Part shown: positions 665 to 48,404 of the stretch, in pieces
How positions within the stretch are numbered: the stretch's first letter is position 1
Layout: each line of letters begins with the position of its first letter
Assembly (NCBI GenBank): GCA_015485495.1
Contig: WFTL01000169.1
Span: 1 to 64,000 of the forward strand
Reading direction: 5' to 3'
From: Planctomycetaceae bacterium
GTDB lineage: Bacteria; Planctomycetota; Planctomycetia; Planctomycetales; Planctomycetaceae
DNA: 64,000 nucleotides
Translations under genes and position numbers: made by a program
The notes under the pieces: generated by a model
The model's input: the letters and a program-made list of their open reading frames with translations, nothing else
What the model was told of the DNA's origin: nothing
The model's database searches: none

Positions 665-1453
665 TCACACAGACTGCGTCGACGACGCATCTTCATCCAC
701 AGAACGCAGGCCCCGAACGATGTGATCGAATACGCGGGGAGCCATCGCGTTGAAATACTCCCAGGAATGCCCCCCGGCGGATGTTTCGAAATCCCGTTCA
801 TACAGGATGCCGGAAGAGGACAGTTTCATGCCGAGCCGTGTGCAGCCGTCGAACCAGTCGGTGTCGGACGGATCGCAGCAGAGGAACTGACAGCGCGGCC
901 AGGACAGAGGATGCAGATTCAGAACGATCGTATCCTGGCGGGCTTCTTCCTGCGACGCATACATCTGATCGATCGGAAGTCCCCTTCCGTACAACTGATG
1001 AAAATCGACCGCAGGCGATATCGCGGCCACCACGGGGAATTCCCGGGCATGGCGATACGCCAGCTGCAGGGCCCCCTGCCCCCCCGTGCTGACTCCCAGC
1101 AGTGCGATTCGCGGAGGACCGATGTTCCACTGCCCGGTGATCCACGGCACCAGAACGGTTCGCAGCCACGAAAGCGGCGTGATGTGCGCACTGAAGTCCG
1201 GACAGATTCTGTCGAGCCACCAGCTTCGGCCTCCATGAGGACAGACAGCCACCAGGCCGTGGTCCTGAAGCTGCTGACAGTAGACACGATTGTCTGTCAG
1301 TCCGATCTGAGCATGGCCCTGAAGAAACAGCACAACGCCCGGACGGTCATCTGTCCCGGGGTCGAAGACATCCACCGTCCGACCGTCCACCTGGTGTGTG
1401 GACCAGCCGGAACGGCGGGACTGCGGGAACAGTCGTCGGAGTGTCCGAAGCAT
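665..1453 (-). CDS. Alpha/beta hydrolase (esterase-like)
   Basis: MLRTLRRLFPQSRRSGWSTHQVDGRTVDVFDPGTDDRPGVVLFLQGHAQ...IALLGVSTGGQGALQLAYRH...GGHSWEYFNAMAPRVFDHI; GxSxGG nucleophile elbow and C-terminal GGHSW typical of esterase D-like hydrolases. Confidence 0.75.
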   Translation of the reverse strand: MLRTLRRLFPQSRRSGWSTHQVDGRTVDVFDPGTDDRPGVVLFLQGHAQIGLTDNRVYCQQLQDHGLVAVCPHGGRSWWLDRICPDFSAHITPLSWLRTVLVPWITGQWNIGPPRIALLGVSTGGQGALQLAYRHAREFPVVAAISPAVDFHQLYGRGLPIDQMYASQEEARQDTIVLNLHPLSWPRCQFLCCDPSDTDWFDGCTRLGMKLSSSGILYERDFETSAGGHSWEYFNAMAPRVFDHIVRGLRSVDEDASSTQSV

Positions 1454-1563
1454 GAGAAAATTCCTGCGGTCACGGGGAGAACCGGGAAGTCGGGGCGGCC
1501 GTTTCCGTCGATGTCCGGTGAACGGTGCGTCGGTGCCGTCCGGAAACGATGGCCACCGGTCGT

Positions 1564-3192
1564 TCAGACCGTGACCTCCGGCCGGGCCATCGCCTGGACC
1601 TCTGCCGCCGAATAACAGGTCACGCGGCCGCCATCGGTGAACTGCAGCAGGTCCTCCACCGGCTTTCCGGAAATCTTCGCTGCGGCGAACAGTCCCGTGG
1701 CCAGAGCGCCCAGAACGCCATGAGCCGACGTGGACTGACCGCAATGATACAGTCCGGAGATTTCTGTGCGGATCCGGGGAGCTGCCGGACCGATCTGAGA
1801 CAGCACTTTGGCGTGGCCATACAGATTGCCGCGATGGGCTGCCACATAAAACGCGTTCGTGAGCGGCGATCCCAGCTCGCACAGCTTCAGATGGTCCCGC
1901 AGATTCGGGATCACGATTTCCAGAGTCTCCAGCATGCGGCCGGTCAGGTGCTGTTTGAATGCGTGGTAATCGTCCGGACGCTCGCCGTACTGCGAGTCCT
2001 GCCAGCGGCGGAAGGCATCCCAGGAAACGAACGTGAACGCTTCCAGCGAATGCAGTCCCTGATGCATTTTGGTGGGATCTTTGCGGGTCGTGACCGTGAG
2101 AAACGCTCCGTCGAACGGTCCGTCACCGGTCAGATCGGAATGTTCTGCCTGGCGATAGACTGCCGACACATCGGGATCGGCCAGAATCCAGTAGTTTCCG
2201 GAATCCAGTCCCAGGGCATCCGCATCGATGTCGGCCGCCATAAACAGACTCAGCGCACTGACCGATGGTCGAAGCCGTTCGATCCGCTCTGCCAGGGCAT
2301 CGCTGAGGTGACTGCGGCCGACGAGCTGCAGGTAGGTCGTCCAGGCATCTGCGTTGGACAGGACGGCGGATGCCCGCAGTTCTTCACCCGATTCCAGTCG
2401 GACTCCGACGGCTCGTCGGCTGCCGCCCCGGCCTTCGACCAGAATCTGTGCCACACGCGTTCGTGTCCGGATTTCACCGCCCTGCTTTTTCAGACGGGCG
2501 ATCAGGGCACGCGGTATGGCTCCTCCACCGCCTTTCGGAAACCAGGCTCCCTCCCAGTAATGACTGTCGATGGCAACGTGCTGCAGAAACGGCACTTCTT
2601 CCGGAGACAGCCCGTGATCGCCGGCTCGTGATTCCAGAATCGCCTTCAGCCGCGGATGACGGACGTACCGATCGACAATCTGCGACAGAGGTCTGGTCCC
2701 GCGAAGTACGAAAGACGGCGCTCGGATCAGCAAAGCCAGGTGCCCGACCCGGCTGCGGGCCTGCATGGCAAGTGTGAGGCCTCGATCGACTTTCTTCATG
2801 AGCCGAAAATACCGAACGATGCCTCGGCGTTCTTCCGGAAACCGTTCGATGAGACGCTGCTGAAAGGTTTCGCAGCCGGAGGGAATATCGAACGTTTCAT
2901 CGGGGAAAACGATGTGGTCGTAGCCGTCCGGATTGAGTTCCATGAACTCCAGGTCTCCTCCGACCCCCAGGCCTTCGAAGAAAGAGCGCATCCGACCGCC
3001 TTCCTGAAGCTGCCCGATGTAGTGCACGCCCGGACTGAACCGATGTCCGTCCAGAGCGAACGTATGGCACCAGCCGCCCGGCAGATAGTGCTGTTCCAGC
3101 ACGAGAACCTTTCGTCCGGTGTTCGCCAGAGCCACAGCGCCGCCCAGGCCGCCGACTCCGGAACCGATCACAATGACATCCCATTCAGGCAT
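1564..3192 (-). CDS. FAD-dependent oxidoreductase, phytoene desaturase / carotenoid isomerase / retinol saturase-like
   Basis: MPEWDVIVIGSGVGGLGGAVALANTGRKVLVLEQHYLPGGWCHTFALDGHRFSPGVHYIG: dinucleotide-binding motif plus CrtISO-like N-terminus; C-terminal SGLYHCGQSTSAHGVLGALATGLFAA. Confidence 0.8.
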   Translation of the reverse strand: MPEWDVIVIGSGVGGLGGAVALANTGRKVLVLEQHYLPGGWCHTFALDGHRFSPGVHYIGQLQEGGRMRSFFEGLGVGGDLEFMELNPDGYDHIVFPDETFDIPSGCETFQQRLIERFPEERRGIVRYFRLMKKVDRGLTLAMQARSRVGHLALLIRAPSFVLRGTRPLSQIVDRYVRHPRLKAILESRAGDHGLSPEEVPFLQHVAIDSHYWEGAWFPKGGGGAIPRALIARLKKQGGEIRTRTRVAQILVEGRGGSRRAVGVRLESGEELRASAVLSNADAWTTYLQLVGRSHLSDALAERIERLRPSVSALSLFMAADIDADALGLDSGNYWILADPDVSAVYRQAEHSDLTGDGPFDGAFLTVTTRKDPTKMHQGLHSLEAFTFVSWDAFRRWQDSQYGERPDDYHAFKQHLTGRMLETLEIVIPNLRDHLKLCELGSPLTNAFYVAAHRGNLYGHAKVLSQIGPAAPRIRTEISGLYHCGQSTSAHGVLGALATGLFAAAKISGKPVEDLLQFTDGGRVTCYSAAEVQAMARPEVTV

Positions 3193-39966: not shown

Positions 39967-40360
39967 GGCCAGTGCCCGCATCGATGCCTCGGTTCTGCAG
40001 CTTGCACATCCATTTTGGTAAACGGCAGGGGCATCGTCCAGACAGCACCATTCGAATGATCCGCCTCTGCCGGAGATGACAGATTCGTGCAGAAAAACTC
40101 GCAGATGCTGCGTGCGGCGTGCTGGTTCAGACGCCATGATGCACCCGTCCGGCTGGTCCCCATGGTTTCTTTCCGGCCATCGAATCAGGAAGGCTCCACC
40201 TTCGCTCGGACCGAACCACGGAATCTCCGTCCCGAGAACATGTCTGGGACGCAGCCGACTGAATACAGGATGGCCGTTTTTTTACGAGCCTGCCGGGTTC
40301 CTGTGAGGCGAACACATGTATCGAAAACCATGTCCATCGGAACGATCCGGCTGCCACAGC

Positions 40361-42268
40361 ATGCGACTGCGCACATGGTTTTCTCTTCTGATCCTGTCTG
40401 CAGCGGCTTTGATATCAGACTTATCGCAGGCTCAGGATTCCCGGGGACGCACCGAAGCGGTTCCTGTGGCTGCTGACCGAAACGATTCGTTCGATGTCAA
40501 ACTGAAGCTCCTTCAGGAGGCCTGGAACCGTGGACACCTGGACCTGGCCCGTTCTCTGACTCACTCTCTGCGCCACACAATCCTTCAGAGGCAGCATGAA
40601 GGAACGAAGCCGAAGGGACATCTGATCGATACGGAACCGCATTCGGTCTCCGACGTTCTGCCGGCGGCCTGGCAGGATTGGGCTGCCGGCTGGAACCTGT
40701 GTACCGTGGTGTCTGTTCAGGAACCCATCGGTGAACGACGGATCCATGAACCTGTGGAAATTACACTGAAGTTTCCGGCGGCGCAGGTTGGCGCTGCATT
40801 CCGGGAAGTTCGGGTGGCGCGTCTGACAGCCCGTGGACCTGTGGAGGTCCCTTCTCAGGTCTTTGGAGAACTGCGGCGGGGGCCCTGGCGATATGCCCGT
40901 GTGCTGTGGATGGCAGACTGTGAACCCCATGAAAACCGGATGTATCTGATTTTCAGCGGAAACAGCGATGCGGAACTGCCGGAGTATCCGTCGGATCTGA
41001 AAACAGAAGGAGAAGGCGTCGGACTGAATGTGACCAATGCCCATTTTCAGGCGGTGCTTTCGCCGCGAACCGGACAGATGGAACGGCTCATTCTGCGTCG
41101 CGAACACGGGCTGGAACTGTTTTCCGGCGGACAGGGACATGGGGAACCGCCGGGAATCGACTGGGCACACGATTACGTGGATGAGTACGGTTTCGAAAAA
41201 CTGCGCGTGTCGCTGTGGGACCGCTGCCCCGACTATGAAATCGTCCGCGGTCCTCTGTGTACGGTGGTTCGTCGCTGGGGTTTTCCGTATTCACCTGTGC
41301 ATCCTGTGGATTCACCGGCCCGGCTGCACGTCGACGTGGAATACCGCTTCTATTCGGGTCTGCCGTGGTTTCTGAAAATCGGCCGGATGACGGCCGTGCA
41401 GGATCTGAACGTGAGCGCCCTGCGCGATGATGAATGGGTCTTCTCCGGACATTCCTTCACGGACACGCTGTGGATGAGTCGCGATGGCCGGCTTCATATC
41501 GGTGACGTTGATCCGGAGCACCGCAGAGATCTCTGGGGAGTGGGCTTTTTTCATCGCGACAGCCGCGACAGTTTCATGGCGATGTTTCTGGAACACCGCG
41601 CCGATGGCATCCCGGAACTCGTTCACGGCGGAGTTCCCACCCTTTCGTATCGCTGGCATGGAAATTTGTGGAGCCGATATCCGCTGCCCCAGGAAAGCCT
41701 CCCGGCCGGGACCGTGCTGCACCAGAAGAATGCGTACGCAGCCATTCCCTTCACGCCGTCCGACGGCCCCGTGGAACTCGAATCGCTTCGTCGCCGCCTC
41801 ATGAACCCGCTGATCGTCAGCCCCGGGCCGGAACATCCTGTCTTTGAGTCGTCTGTCGGAGAGGGTGATGGTTCCGAAACCGTCCGCATGCATCGGCTGG
41901 GCCGGCCAGGGGAAACAGGTGATCAGGCGGAAATCAAACGCCGGATTCGGGAAGCTCTCAGGGACTGTCGTGATGCGCAGCTTTATCGCGCTGATGTCAG
42001 CGTTTTCGATCTGGGGCTCGTGTATGACATTCGTTTTCGCGGCGATGTGGTGACTTTGGTAATGACGATGCCGCATCGGGGCCGCCCGCTGACGGGATAC
42101 TTCGTCGACGGATCCGTATCCGTTCATCCGACCCCGTCGGTTCCGCTGCGCACCCGGCTTCTGCAGATCCCCGGTGTCCGCCAGGTCGACGTCCGCACGA
42201 CATGGAATCCTCCGTGGAATTCGGGACGTCTCACGGACGAAGGCCGGCGGCGTCTGGGACTGGACTGA
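40361..42268 (+). CDS. Predicted secreted ~635-650 aa protein with C-terminal MIP18/DUF59 (Fe-S assembly)-like domain
   Basis: N-terminal MRLRTWFSLLILSAAALISDLSQAQ signal-like; C-terminal IKRRIREALRDCRDAQLYRADVSVFDLGLVYDIRFRGDVVTLVMTMPHRGRPLTGYFVDG...LLQIPGVRQVDVRTTWNPPWNSGRLTDEGRRRLGLD matches the DUF59 pattern. ORF extends to an ATG at 40316. Confidence 0.75.
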   Translation: MRLRTWFSLLILSAAALISDLSQAQDSRGRTEAVPVAADRNDSFDVKLKLLQEAWNRGHLDLARSLTHSLRHTILQRQHEGTKPKGHLIDTEPHSVSDVLPAAWQDWAAGWNLCTVVSVQEPIGERRIHEPVEITLKFPAAQVGAAFREVRVARLTARGPVEVPSQVFGELRRGPWRYARVLWMADCEPHENRMYLIFSGNSDAELPEYPSDLKTEGEGVGLNVTNAHFQAVLSPRTGQMERLILRREHGLELFSGGQGHGEPPGIDWAHDYVDEYGFEKLRVSLWDRCPDYEIVRGPLCTVVRRWGFPYSPVHPVDSPARLHVDVEYRFYSGLPWFLKIGRMTAVQDLNVSALRDDEWVFSGHSFTDTLWMSRDGRLHIGDVDPEHRRDLWGVGFFHRDSRDSFMAMFLEHRADGIPELVHGGVPTLSYRWHGNLWSRYPLPQESLPAGTVLHQKNAYAAIPFTPSDGPVELESLRRRLMNPLIVSPGPEHPVFESSVGEGDGSETVRMHRLGRPGETGDQAEIKRRIREALRDCRDAQLYRADVSVFDLGLVYDIRFRGDVVTLVMTMPHRGRPLTGYFVDGSVSVHPTPSVPLRTRLLQIPGVRQVDVRTTWNPPWNSGRLTDEGRRRLGLD

Positions 42269-44847: not shown

Positions 44848-45690
44848 TCAGTCCGGAGGCCCCAGCCGGATTTTCGGAGCATCAGAAGACTTTTCTGAAT
44901 TTGTCGATGAAGGGGTCGCCGGTGAGGAACGTGACGGAGGCGCCTGTTTCGGAGCCGTTTTATCAGGCGCATTGCCGATTGCCGGGGCCGTCCCCGGGGC
45001 AGGAGCCTTCGGCAGCGTCAAAAGTGGATTCGGAGCCGGCTGTTCTTCCTCGGATTCACTCCGGTGGGCACTGATCGTTCCCAGAACGGCCACACTGATG
45101 ATCATCGACAGAATTCCCAGACCGCGACGGATGCCGTCGTCCTTGACCATGGAAAAAATGGACGCGATGCAGGCAAACCCGGCTGCCAGCATGCCGGTTG
45201 TTTCCGCGCCTTTGCGGATGATCGGGTTGTCCACAAACAACACCGGATAAAGCGTTGCTGCGCTGAACAGGGCGATCGGCAGGACCGCCCAGGCCACCAC
45301 CCGTTTCTCCCGGTGTCGAACCTCTTCCTTCGTCGATATCCGGATCTCCGCTCCCGCTTCATCCATGGAATTCACGACGGTCATGAGATTCAGCAGGCCG
45401 GCCGACCGAATGACTTCCCGTACGATGTCCTTATCGGCAGCGACCACCACTTTGCGGTCGTACCATCCATCGGTGGCCTTCCACATGCGCACCAGTGAGG
45501 CCACCAGGCCGCTCTGGATGAGTTCCATTCCGGTGAGATCGATGATCAGGCGGGCTGTTTCTGTGCTTTTGATCTTTTCAACGATCTCAGCAGCTTCCTT
45601 TTCGACGTCTCCCCAGGACATTTCCAGGAGATCCGGAAGAAAGCGGACTACAGAATGCCCCCGTTTTTCTTCGAAAGTGAATCCTGCCAT
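44848..45690 (-). CDS. STAS-domain protein fused to membrane segments and a Pro/Ala-rich tail
   Basis: ETARLIIDLTGMELIQSGLVASLVRMWKATDGWYDRKVVVAADKDIVREVIRSAGLLNLMTVVNS (STAS-like) then VVAWAVLPIALFSAATLYPVLFV and further TMs. Confidence 0.7.
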   Translation of the reverse strand: MAGFTFEEKRGHSVVRFLPDLLEMSWGDVEKEAAEIVEKIKSTETARLIIDLTGMELIQSGLVASLVRMWKATDGWYDRKVVVAADKDIVREVIRSAGLLNLMTVVNSMDEAGAEIRISTKEEVRHREKRVVAWAVLPIALFSAATLYPVLFVDNPIIRKGAETTGMLAAGFACIASIFSMVKDDGIRRGLGILSMIISVAVLGTISAHRSESEEEQPAPNPLLTLPKAPAPGTAPAIGNAPDKTAPKQAPPSRSSPATPSSTNSEKSSDAPKIRLGPPD

Positions 45691-45897
45691 CGACACGGCC
45701 CTGTCTAATCACGTATCTGCTGAAGTGTCAGCGCAGCCGTTTCGGCCGAAGCGGGTGCGCCAGCCCGGCATCCATCGTAAGCGACGATCGGTCAGGACGC
45801 CAATGACTCGACAAATCCAGCGGAGGAAAATTGATCCGGTGACCAGGCGGTGTCCGGGGCTGTTCGCTGACCGCAGAACCGGATGAGTCCATCCGGC

Positions 45898-48174
45898 TCA
45901 CTGCGGTGAAACAAGGCAGCCATCGTGGCGTTTCAGATGTTTCTGCCATCGCTGCACGGCGTCCCTTCGCCGCCGCCGGTCGGCGTCGGGATGATACCCG
46001 AAATCTTCGCCCGTCAGTTCACTGGCCAGCAGAAATGCCATGTGACGGATCTCCACGCGGTCATGATCAAGCTGCTCCACCAGCCAGGCACTTGTTTCCG
46101 GATTCTGCGCCTGAGCCGGAGAAATCCCCTGAAGAAGTCGAACGAAATCATCAAGCACCGTGGCCGGCAGACGGTTTCCAAGGGCCTTGAGGACCGCCTC
46201 ACGTCCCGCTGCCGCCTGCGCGGCCGTTCGGCGCAGCCCCATGATGGCGGCGGTCCGGACACTTTCTTCGGAAGTCCGTGTCAGAACGATGACCAGACGG
46301 TCCGCGTCGCGACACACGGCCAGCAGAGCGGCTGCATAGGTCGCCGTGATGCTGTTGCGGTGATCCGCAAGTTCCACAGCAGCGTCTGTCAGTGACGGAG
46401 CGGTCATCAGTTCGGACGCCAGAATGGCAGCAGCCCGGGCTGTCGCCCGAACAGGAGGGGCATCACCGGTGTGGACCCATTCCGGAATCGCATCGAGCTG
46501 GTCCGGAGGGCTGACCGCGAGATCATCAACCTGGTCGTTTCGAACCGCCCAGTATAAAGACCGGCCGTTCCCCACTGTCAGAGGTTCCTGATCAGGAAGA
46601 TGCACCTGAGCCTGTCCCTGAACAACAAACAGTTCGACCATGACGTCATTGGTCAGCGGCAGAATGTCCCGTTCATCAGCAGACAGCGGCCGACTGCCAT
46701 TTTCGGACGGCTCCGGAGGCACGGCGAACACCGACAGCCCTGCCCGCACCTCCGCCCCTTCCAGAAAACATTCCACGTGCACCTGGCCGGCCATCAGCGT
46801 GAAGGCGGCCGGTTCCCCTTCCGGCAGAGCCTCATCGCGTTTCACAATGCAGCGGCCGTCGTAAAGACGGATTCCAGGAGACACCCCGTCGGAAAACGAC
46901 GCCAGAGAGGGCGGCAGCAGGCTGATCGTGCATCCGGAGCGGAGAGGCGTGATGTGGGCGACATAGGGAAGCGAAATGGCAGCGACGTTCTGAACGAGCG
47001 TGTCATGCCAGTCCGGATTCAACTGGTGCAGCGACGCTCCGCGGATCCACTCCGCTGGTGTCCCGCGCCGAATCAGCAGCATGTCATTGGTCGCTTCCAC
47101 AGCAAATCGAAAACGCCTCGGCCGACGTTCCTGCTCGGTATTCACAACGGAAGAAACGTCTGCTTCCGATTCGGCTTCCGTTGCCGGAGTCGAATCCGGA
47201 TCGGTCGACGGCACCGCCGAATCACTGTGTCCGGTGTCCGCCACGCCGAACGCGGAATCCGCAGGATCGGCTGTGCTGTCATCGGCCATCGCTGTACTGT
47301 CGGGCTGAGAGCCGGCATCGTCCGCAGACTCCGGATCGCCTTCGGACGCTGTTTCGTCAGCTTCTGCGGGACCGCCGTCGATGTTCTCCGAAGGCCGTTC
47401 TTCAGACACCGCAGAGGAGGCGTCGCCATCGGACGTCGGTACTTCTCCGTCGCGGGACGCCTCGGTTTCACGGGCTTCCACGGACACATCATCCGGATCG
47501 GAGTCAGCAATCGGTTCCGGTTTCTTCGCAGCCTTCCCGGCTTCTGTGGTCTGGAGATCCTGAGACGCTGCCTGGGCCATCTCCGGATCGGTCGGCCGTG
47601 ACGACGTCGTCCACAGGTCGCGATCCATGAAGAATACAACGATCCAGGCCACCAGAAGGATCGTGAGAACCAGGGTGGGCGAGCGAGGGGAAAAGGTGCG
47701 CTGAGGAGCCATGGGCTGCCAGATTTCCTGGCTGGGATCGGACGTTTTCGTCGCCGCAAACTGTTCCAGTTCATGGTCCGTGGTTTCTTCAGCCGGTCGG
47801 TCCGGATTGAGTCGGATCAGGCGGGCCCGCTGCCGCTCATCCAGCAGCACCGGATCGCCCAGCAGGCCGATGATTTCATGCGACGCGGCCACTTCGGCCA
47901 GGGAGAAATCCGAAGCAAGCACCTCTTTCTCAACCAGGGCCACCAGCTCGGGAGTGAGCTGGTCATCCAGATATTCGGCAATCAGGTTCGGGTCGATCGC
48001 TTTGGTCTGCCGCCCAGGAACACTCAGACGACGCTGTCGAACGACCGAGCGAATGCGATCGGCCAGTTCCTGAGCAAACGGGCTGGCGGCCAGTTTCTTC
48101 CCGATTTCCCGGGCATTGGCGGGAGGAAGCCGATCGTCCAGATAGGCCAGAAGCGTTCTCAGCGTCAGTCGCAT
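45898..48174 (-). CDS. Large membrane protein: tandem anti-sigma-like N-terminal repeats, one TM, acidic Ser/Asp/Glu/Ala-rich linker, extracytoplasmic region with HEAT-like C-terminus
   Basis: MRLTLRTLLAYLDDRLPPANAREIGKKLAASPFAQELADRI and NLIAEYLDDQLTPELVALVEKEVLASDFSLAEVAA; TM LVLTILLVAWIVVFFM; ~120-residue acidic linker. Confidence 0.7.
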   Translation of the reverse strand: MRLTLRTLLAYLDDRLPPANAREIGKKLAASPFAQELADRIRSVVRQRRLSVPGRQTKAIDPNLIAEYLDDQLTPELVALVEKEVLASDFSLAEVAASHEIIGLLGDPVLLDERQRARLIRLNPDRPAEETTDHELEQFAATKTSDPSQEIWQPMAPQRTFSPRSPTLVLTILLVAWIVVFFMDRDLWTTSSRPTDPEMAQAASQDLQTTEAGKAAKKPEPIADSDPDDVSVEARETEASRDGEVPTSDGDASSAVSEERPSENIDGGPAEADETASEGDPESADDAGSQPDSTAMADDSTADPADSAFGVADTGHSDSAVPSTDPDSTPATEAESEADVSSVVNTEQERRPRRFRFAVEATNDMLLIRRGTPAEWIRGASLHQLNPDWHDTLVQNVAAISLPYVAHITPLRSGCTISLLPPSLASFSDGVSPGIRLYDGRCIVKRDEALPEGEPAAFTLMAGQVHVECFLEGAEVRAGLSVFAVPPEPSENGSRPLSADERDILPLTNDVMVELFVVQGQAQVHLPDQEPLTVGNGRSLYWAVRNDQVDDLAVSPPDQLDAIPEWVHTGDAPPVRATARAAAILASELMTAPSLTDAAVELADHRNSITATYAAALLAVCRDADRLVIVLTRTSEESVRTAAIMGLRRTAAQAAAGREAVLKALGNRLPATVLDDFVRLLQGISPAQAQNPETSAWLVEQLDHDRVEIRHMAFLLASELTGEDFGYHPDADRRRRRDAVQRWQKHLKRHDGCLVSPQ

Positions 48175-48404
48175 GGTATTGAGCACCTTTGCGGGAACCG
48201 TGCAGGATGAAGGCTGTGGAAACGAGTCCCGGCCCCGTTCCCACAGCCCCTGTTTCTTATGTAGTGACATGTCCTTCGGGATTTCGGGCAGCCTTTTTCT
48301 GAAAAAGCCGCATGGAGGCGTCCTTCGCTTTTCCGTCGCAGCTTTTCTATACTTCCCGGCTGATCGGTTTCACCGTCCGAATCATCAGCAGGGAACGCAC
48401 ATTC

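Follow-up and report, generated by a model that had tools for sequence, protein, structure and literature searches.

A predicted DUF59/MIP18 domain without its reactive cysteine, fused to a conserved beta-rich core in Planctomycetota and Verrucomicrobiota

DUF59 domains are regarded as cytoplasmic Fe-S maturation factors, and they are defined by one reactive Cys. The published SufT/DUF59 motif is DPE-X26-31-T-X2/3-C (PMC9045647), and its Cys is present in each of 761 SufT homologues (PMC4982691). In the literature searched, we found no paper on an exported or Cys-less DUF59 domain. Here, we analyzed an open reading frame (ORF) of a 64,000-nucleotide stretch of DNA from a Planctomycetaceae bacterium (the whole stretch is called the window) together with its homologues. 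Unlike the described DUF59/MIP18/SufT proteins, the members of this fused family join a DUF59-like domain to a beta-rich core of ~470 aa, and one clade is predicted to be exported. This fused architecture is absent from the DUF59 modules S1-S9 that have been catalogued (PMC4982691).

The ORF is open, intact, and exact, with 650 codons plus the stop (Table 1). A GAGG sequence lies ~9 nt 5′ of ATG 40316, and residues are numbered from this ATG throughout. The last 112 residues passed the curated cut-off of PF01883 (E = 1e-5); with TIGR02945, the match (E = 1.2e-10) stayed under the equivalog cut-off. In the PDB, they matched 2cu6 (E = 5e-7, single sequence) and 1uwd (E = 1e-11, family profile). 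In addition, the full protein was modelled with AlphaFold2 (AF2; mean pLDDT 80, pTM 0.84), and Foldseek aligned the modelled C-terminal domain with the Bacillus anthracis DUF59 protein 3lno (TMt 0.82, 2.0 Å). By sequence and predicted fold, the C-terminal domain is a true DUF59/MIP18 domain. Its likeness to DUF59/MIP18/SufT (PF01883, TIGR02945, and PaaD) extends over the C-terminal 110 residues, including the ppW.....t..gr..lG segment. However, the fused-family domain has a 3-residue insertion before DLGLVYD, and it differs at the positions of the published motif (Cys to Arg, Thr to Pro, and DPE to DAQ/DEQ).

Table 1. Position of the ORF and of its predicted parts in the window
Feature	Position	Strand	Basis or remark
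Whole ORF	40316..42268	+	Start at ATG 40316 or in-frame ATG 40361, either possible
Signal-peptide-like sequence MRLRTWFSLLILSAAALISDLSQA	40361..40432	+	Hydropathy and homologue comparison
N-terminal helical hairpin, residues ~59-96, beginning near the conserved [RN][TN]DS..xKxxLL motif	40490..40603	+	AF2 model, alignment
RIFT-barrel-like beta module, residues ~128-214 (EPVE..FP...RExRVAR...EVPxQ)	40697..40957	+	AF2; Foldseek to PL26; weak hhalign
Beta-supersandwich (galactose-mutarotase-like) core, residues ~229-503	41000..41824	+	AF2, Foldseek, invariant columns
Invariant blocks of the supersandwich core: GxGHGE-IDWxHDY, RRWGFP-x4-HP, RDDEWV, WSR	41000..41824	+	Homologue alignment
DUF59/MIP18-like domain, residues 537-650	41924..42265	+	Profile, PDB sequence and fold matches
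CRDAQLY (C551-Y557) in place of the DPE motif	41966..41986	+	Homologue alignment
MPHRGRP (M585-P591), with R590 for the hyper-reactive Cys and P586 for Thr	42068..42088	+	Homologue alignment

Both Planctomycetota and Verrucomicrobiota have full-length homologues (45-61% identity), and the fused family is rare and patchy. For instance, 18 of the 398 genomes of the window's class, the window's own counted, had a strong match. In the phylum sample of a Limisphaerales member, the only strong match among 338 genomes was that member itself, and neither of the two same-genus genomes searched had a homologue. The count of 18 includes genome G847, in which one gene is apparently split over two contigs (L071 and L093), the second piece carrying MPHRGRS. 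In the tree of the core, the window protein fell into a supported clade (clade A, 22 rows, 97/100), and the remaining members are referred to as clade B. The outgroups sit on very long branches, which leaves the root of this tree uncertain. Three loci whose records are titled Akkermansia muciniphila (L042, L043, and L046) grouped with Limisphaerales-like or other Verrucomicrobiota; these titles look like nearest-reference labels rather than true species names. Meanwhile, the 133-aa N-terminal hairpin of locus L092 (G1006, ~1385-1743), which seemed to stand alone, runs straight into the last ~40 residues of DUF59. L092 thus looks like an internal deletion remnant or an assembly error rather than a new architecture.

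The alignment of DLGLVYD through GRP without gaps sets R590 on the Cys of TSPACP and P586 on the Thr, and the canonical planctomycete EMTLTSPACP pairs with VMAMPHRGRP in the same ungapped way. An alternative register, with P586 on the Pro of SPACP, would place R588 at the Cys position. The conclusion that the Cys is missing stands in both registers, because neither has a Cys nearby. In the homologues of both phyla spanning this part of the domain, Arg occupies position 590 in 40/40, P586 and H587 are each conserved in 40/40, and R588 in 38/40. At the position of the DPE motif, there is DAQ in 23 homologues and mainly DEQ in the other 17: D553 is kept in 39/40, the Pro has become Ala, Glu, or Asp, and the Glu has become Gln or Met. 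Thus, only the Asp of the motif survives in the fused family, and the P, E, T, and C are all replaced. As controls, 25/25 canonical DUF59 domains, from relatives and one from the window's own genome (L055, G000:C21:43838-44053), have both DPE and T..CP; locus L017, matched through an unrelated frame, was left out. A second DUF59 domain of the same genome lies in a 378-aa frame (L056, G000:C62:13085-13267). Since the Arg is found in 40/40 homologues, the replacement characterises the family as a whole and did not arise by a local mutation. The original prediction, which read the last ~110 residues as following the DUF59/PaaD/SufT pattern with the usual Cys replaced by Arg (G-R-P), is therefore borne out: the profile and PDB matches and the model agree with the domain, R590 aligns with the Cys, and no close homologue keeps it.

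The signal-like sequence that had been noticed at the N-terminus is real. From the in-frame ATG 40361, MRLRTWFSLLILSAAALISDLSQA reaches a maximum 12-residue hydropathy of 2.57, and cleavage would likely follow SQA. Every clade A member with a readable N-terminus has such a hydrophobic stretch, and three of them (L041-L043) have a twin-arginine motif, KRR[TK]FLG. Export of the window's clade is thus well supported as a sequence-based prediction. In contrast, 16 of the 17 clade B members have no hydrophobic stretch after the nearest ATG, which lies ~ten residues before a conserved TDS motif; in L053, also of clade B, a signal-like stretch is present but without an ATG. Clade B shares the Cys-less domain but mostly lacks a signal, so export does not explain the loss of the Cys family-wide. 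As the replacement occurs in both clades, it goes with the fusion rather than with export. The original prediction had proposed that an Fe-S carrier fold was reused outside the cytoplasm. For the window's clade, a DUF59 fold outside the cytoplasm is supported by the sequence and model matches and the signal-like N-termini. However, nothing supports an Fe-S carrier, since the motif has kept only its Asp, and the pairing of Cys loss with export fails in the sister group.

The N-terminal ~470-500 aa had no Pfam or NCBIfam match, in agreement with the earlier description of this ~500-aa part as unassigned. In the AF2 model, it forms a helical hairpin followed by what we take to be a RIFT-like barrel and a supersandwich, names given by analogy with the structural matches and with the domains of PL26. 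The top Foldseek match was the PL26 exo-rhamnogalacturonan lyase, with the full model (1.5e-9) and with the N-terminal part alone (1.5e-8), and later matches included GH38 mannosidases, beta-galactosidase, and galactose mutarotase. However, the TM-scores to PL26 were modest (0.34-0.49 of the query, rmsd 9-20 Å), and for the N-terminal module alone TMq was only 0.45-0.49 with an rmsd of 10-12 Å. Therefore, the likeness to PL26 places the window protein tentatively in a fold class, without making it a member of the family. As in PL26 (PcRGLX; 5xqo and 5xqg), the modelled N-terminal part may have a RIFT-like barrel and then a supersandwich. However, the window protein has no significant sequence similarity to PL26, and its model lacks the (alpha/alpha)6 toroid that belongs to the domain make-up of PL26; instead, DUF59 follows the supersandwich. 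The predicted supersandwich is also shared with GH38 alpha-mannosidases and galactose mutarotase, but the window protein lacks the GH38 catalytic domain, and its core has no demonstrated mutarotase residues.

A profile link to PL26 was also considered. With hhalign, the match to planctomycete PcRGLX_1st (PF19501) proteins was collinear but weak (p = 0.23), and it reached p = 0.008 at a probability of 5% when distant relatives (outgroups) were added, which is suggestive and non-significant. The link was set aside. A PF19501 search of the window's own genome matched a different protein only, and a 1030-aa frame of the same genome (L102, G000:C112:14412-14573) gave a marginal PL26-like match in the RIFT part.

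The fused family has 84 invariant columns, many of which are polar, charged, or aromatic residues of the core (among them H275, E277, D282, W283, H285, D286, Y287, R319-P324, H329, R370-V375, W452, and R454). So many invariant charged and aromatic residues point to an active site or to a site for a specific ligand. In addition, we found core homologues without DUF59 in five loci (L062 at 962-2368, minus strand, and L088-L091; E 1e-11 to 2e-39). They are open frames of ~470-516 aa with signal- or lipoprotein-like starts, L088 being cut by a contig end, and they would form an unnamed secreted superfamily; L062, the one scanned, had no Pfam family. These relatives keep the IDW/VHW, GP, RWG, and RDDE motifs, but they lack the DUF59 domain, the N-terminal hairpin, and the GHGE and HP insertions. 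Since part of the core motifs is kept, a secreted core probably existed first and gained DUF59 through the fusion.

To explain these results, we propose (probability about 0.5) a carbohydrate-directed protein, exported in the window's clade, whose supersandwich would carry the site of ligand binding or catalysis. DUF59 would then serve as an exapted accessory domain, equipped with a basic PHRGR loop, and not as an Fe-S carrier. The architecture and the family-wide replacement were observed and the fold similarity was computed on predicted models, whereas export is read from the sequence, and the carbohydrate ligand, catalysis, and the role of the basic loop are inferences. The RIFT-like barrel and the mutarotase-like supersandwich would hold a highly conserved ligand or catalytic cleft. 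Meanwhile, the DUF59 domain would have given up Fe-S handling and been recruited to an accessory or capping role. An invariant basic loop, P-H-R-G-R, takes the place of the reactive Cys and most of the pocket, and this loop may contact either the core domain or a glycan substrate that is anionic. With Arg in place of the key Cys in every member, the domain has probably acquired a new function. However, the absence of Pfam or NCBIfam matches, the weak hhalign results, the modest TM-scores to PL26, the missing toroid, and the unconserved neighbours count against a carbohydrate-directed protein, and the signal-less clade B argues against an obligatory extracellular role. A bolder form of the proposal is a new carbohydrate-active enzyme family with a PL26-like ancestor, in which the thiol-less DUF59 domain with its invariant PHRGR loop would have replaced the ancestral (alpha/alpha)6 domain and would supply part of an extracellular active site; we consider this form unlikely.

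The same data were weighed against other explanations. The protein might be a non-catalytic glycan-binding or cell-surface structural protein, with a lectin-like or scaffold core and DUF59 as a spacer or dimerisation domain. This is possible, if somewhat doubtful: no catalytic family was assigned, no degradative operon is conserved, and SufT homodimerises (PMC9045647), but invariant residues at the density seen in the core (H275, E277, D282, H285, D286, R319, R320, H329, R370-E373, and R454) are less usual in a scaffold than in an active site, and the HRGR loop is conserved beyond the needs of a spacer. Another explanation comes from two residues of clade A. C551, two residues before the old DPE Asp, is invariant there (23/23) and is V or I in the other members (17/17), and H604 (23/23) lies in a loop absent from clade B. 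It is therefore conceivable that a thiol or metal site has been relocated, so that C551 would stand in for the lost Cys of the exported clade and form a new metal or redox site with H587, H604, and the nearly invariant D553. The Asp and the Cys of canonical DUF59 occupy one pocket (PMC9045647), and the twin-arginine motifs would fit cofactor-bound folding before export. However, clade B keeps the rest of the domain without either residue, and twin-arginine signals occur in three members only, so we regard such a site as quite unlikely.

It is highly improbable that the domain still serves in Fe-S or SufT-like maturation without the Cys. The DUF59 fold is clear in the model, the family scores to SufT and PaaD models, and the signal-less clade B could act in the cytoplasm; nevertheless, the motif is replaced in all members at four positions, including the Cys that all SufT homologues surveyed have kept (PMC4982691), and the same genome has a canonical copy. 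Finally, a local mutation, frameshift fusion, or assembly artefact in the window genome alone would fit the lack of a copy in the same-genus genomes. However, the same two domains with the same Arg recur in dozens of independent genomes at 45-61% identity, which leaves practically no room for such an event, and local mutation or mis-assembly is ruled out by the Arg in all homologues.

A fused family that keeps the predicted fold, has lost the Cys in every member, and is apparently exported in one clade offers a clean natural test of a Cys-free DUF59 fold. The core is a highly conserved, probably carbohydrate-directed module of Planctomycetota and Verrucomicrobiota, phyla noted for polysaccharide degradation that is unexplored. 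What is new is a Cys-less, fused, and apparently partly exported form of a known fold, with a partner that is probably carbohydrate-active. An automatic label of "iron-sulfur cluster assembly protein" would mislead for this family.

The window gene is solitary and flanked by two minus-strand genes, a DUF58 gene and a Gfo/Idh/MocA oxidoreductase gene. Across the homologue loci, the neighbours showed no conservation and gave no substrate clue. There was no suf-like gene among the immediate window neighbours or the annotated neighbours at related loci, which is a weak test because many DUF59 proteins are unlinked to suf genes. A promoter and terminator scan found nothing. The only neighbour that recurs is a DUF1501 gene, immediately upstream in the same orientation in three Verrucomicrobiota loci (L040 4242-5672, L046 4275-5705, and L047 2076-3836), and the two genes possibly form an operon there; the DUF1501 family was checked in L040 and L047, and the L046 gene belongs to the same cluster. 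In addition, two other minus-strand ORFs of the window, 44848-45696 and 45898-48270, had no Pfam match at 1e-5, and the latter (790 aa) combines one TM-like stretch with a long acidic linker rich in Asp, Glu, and Ser.
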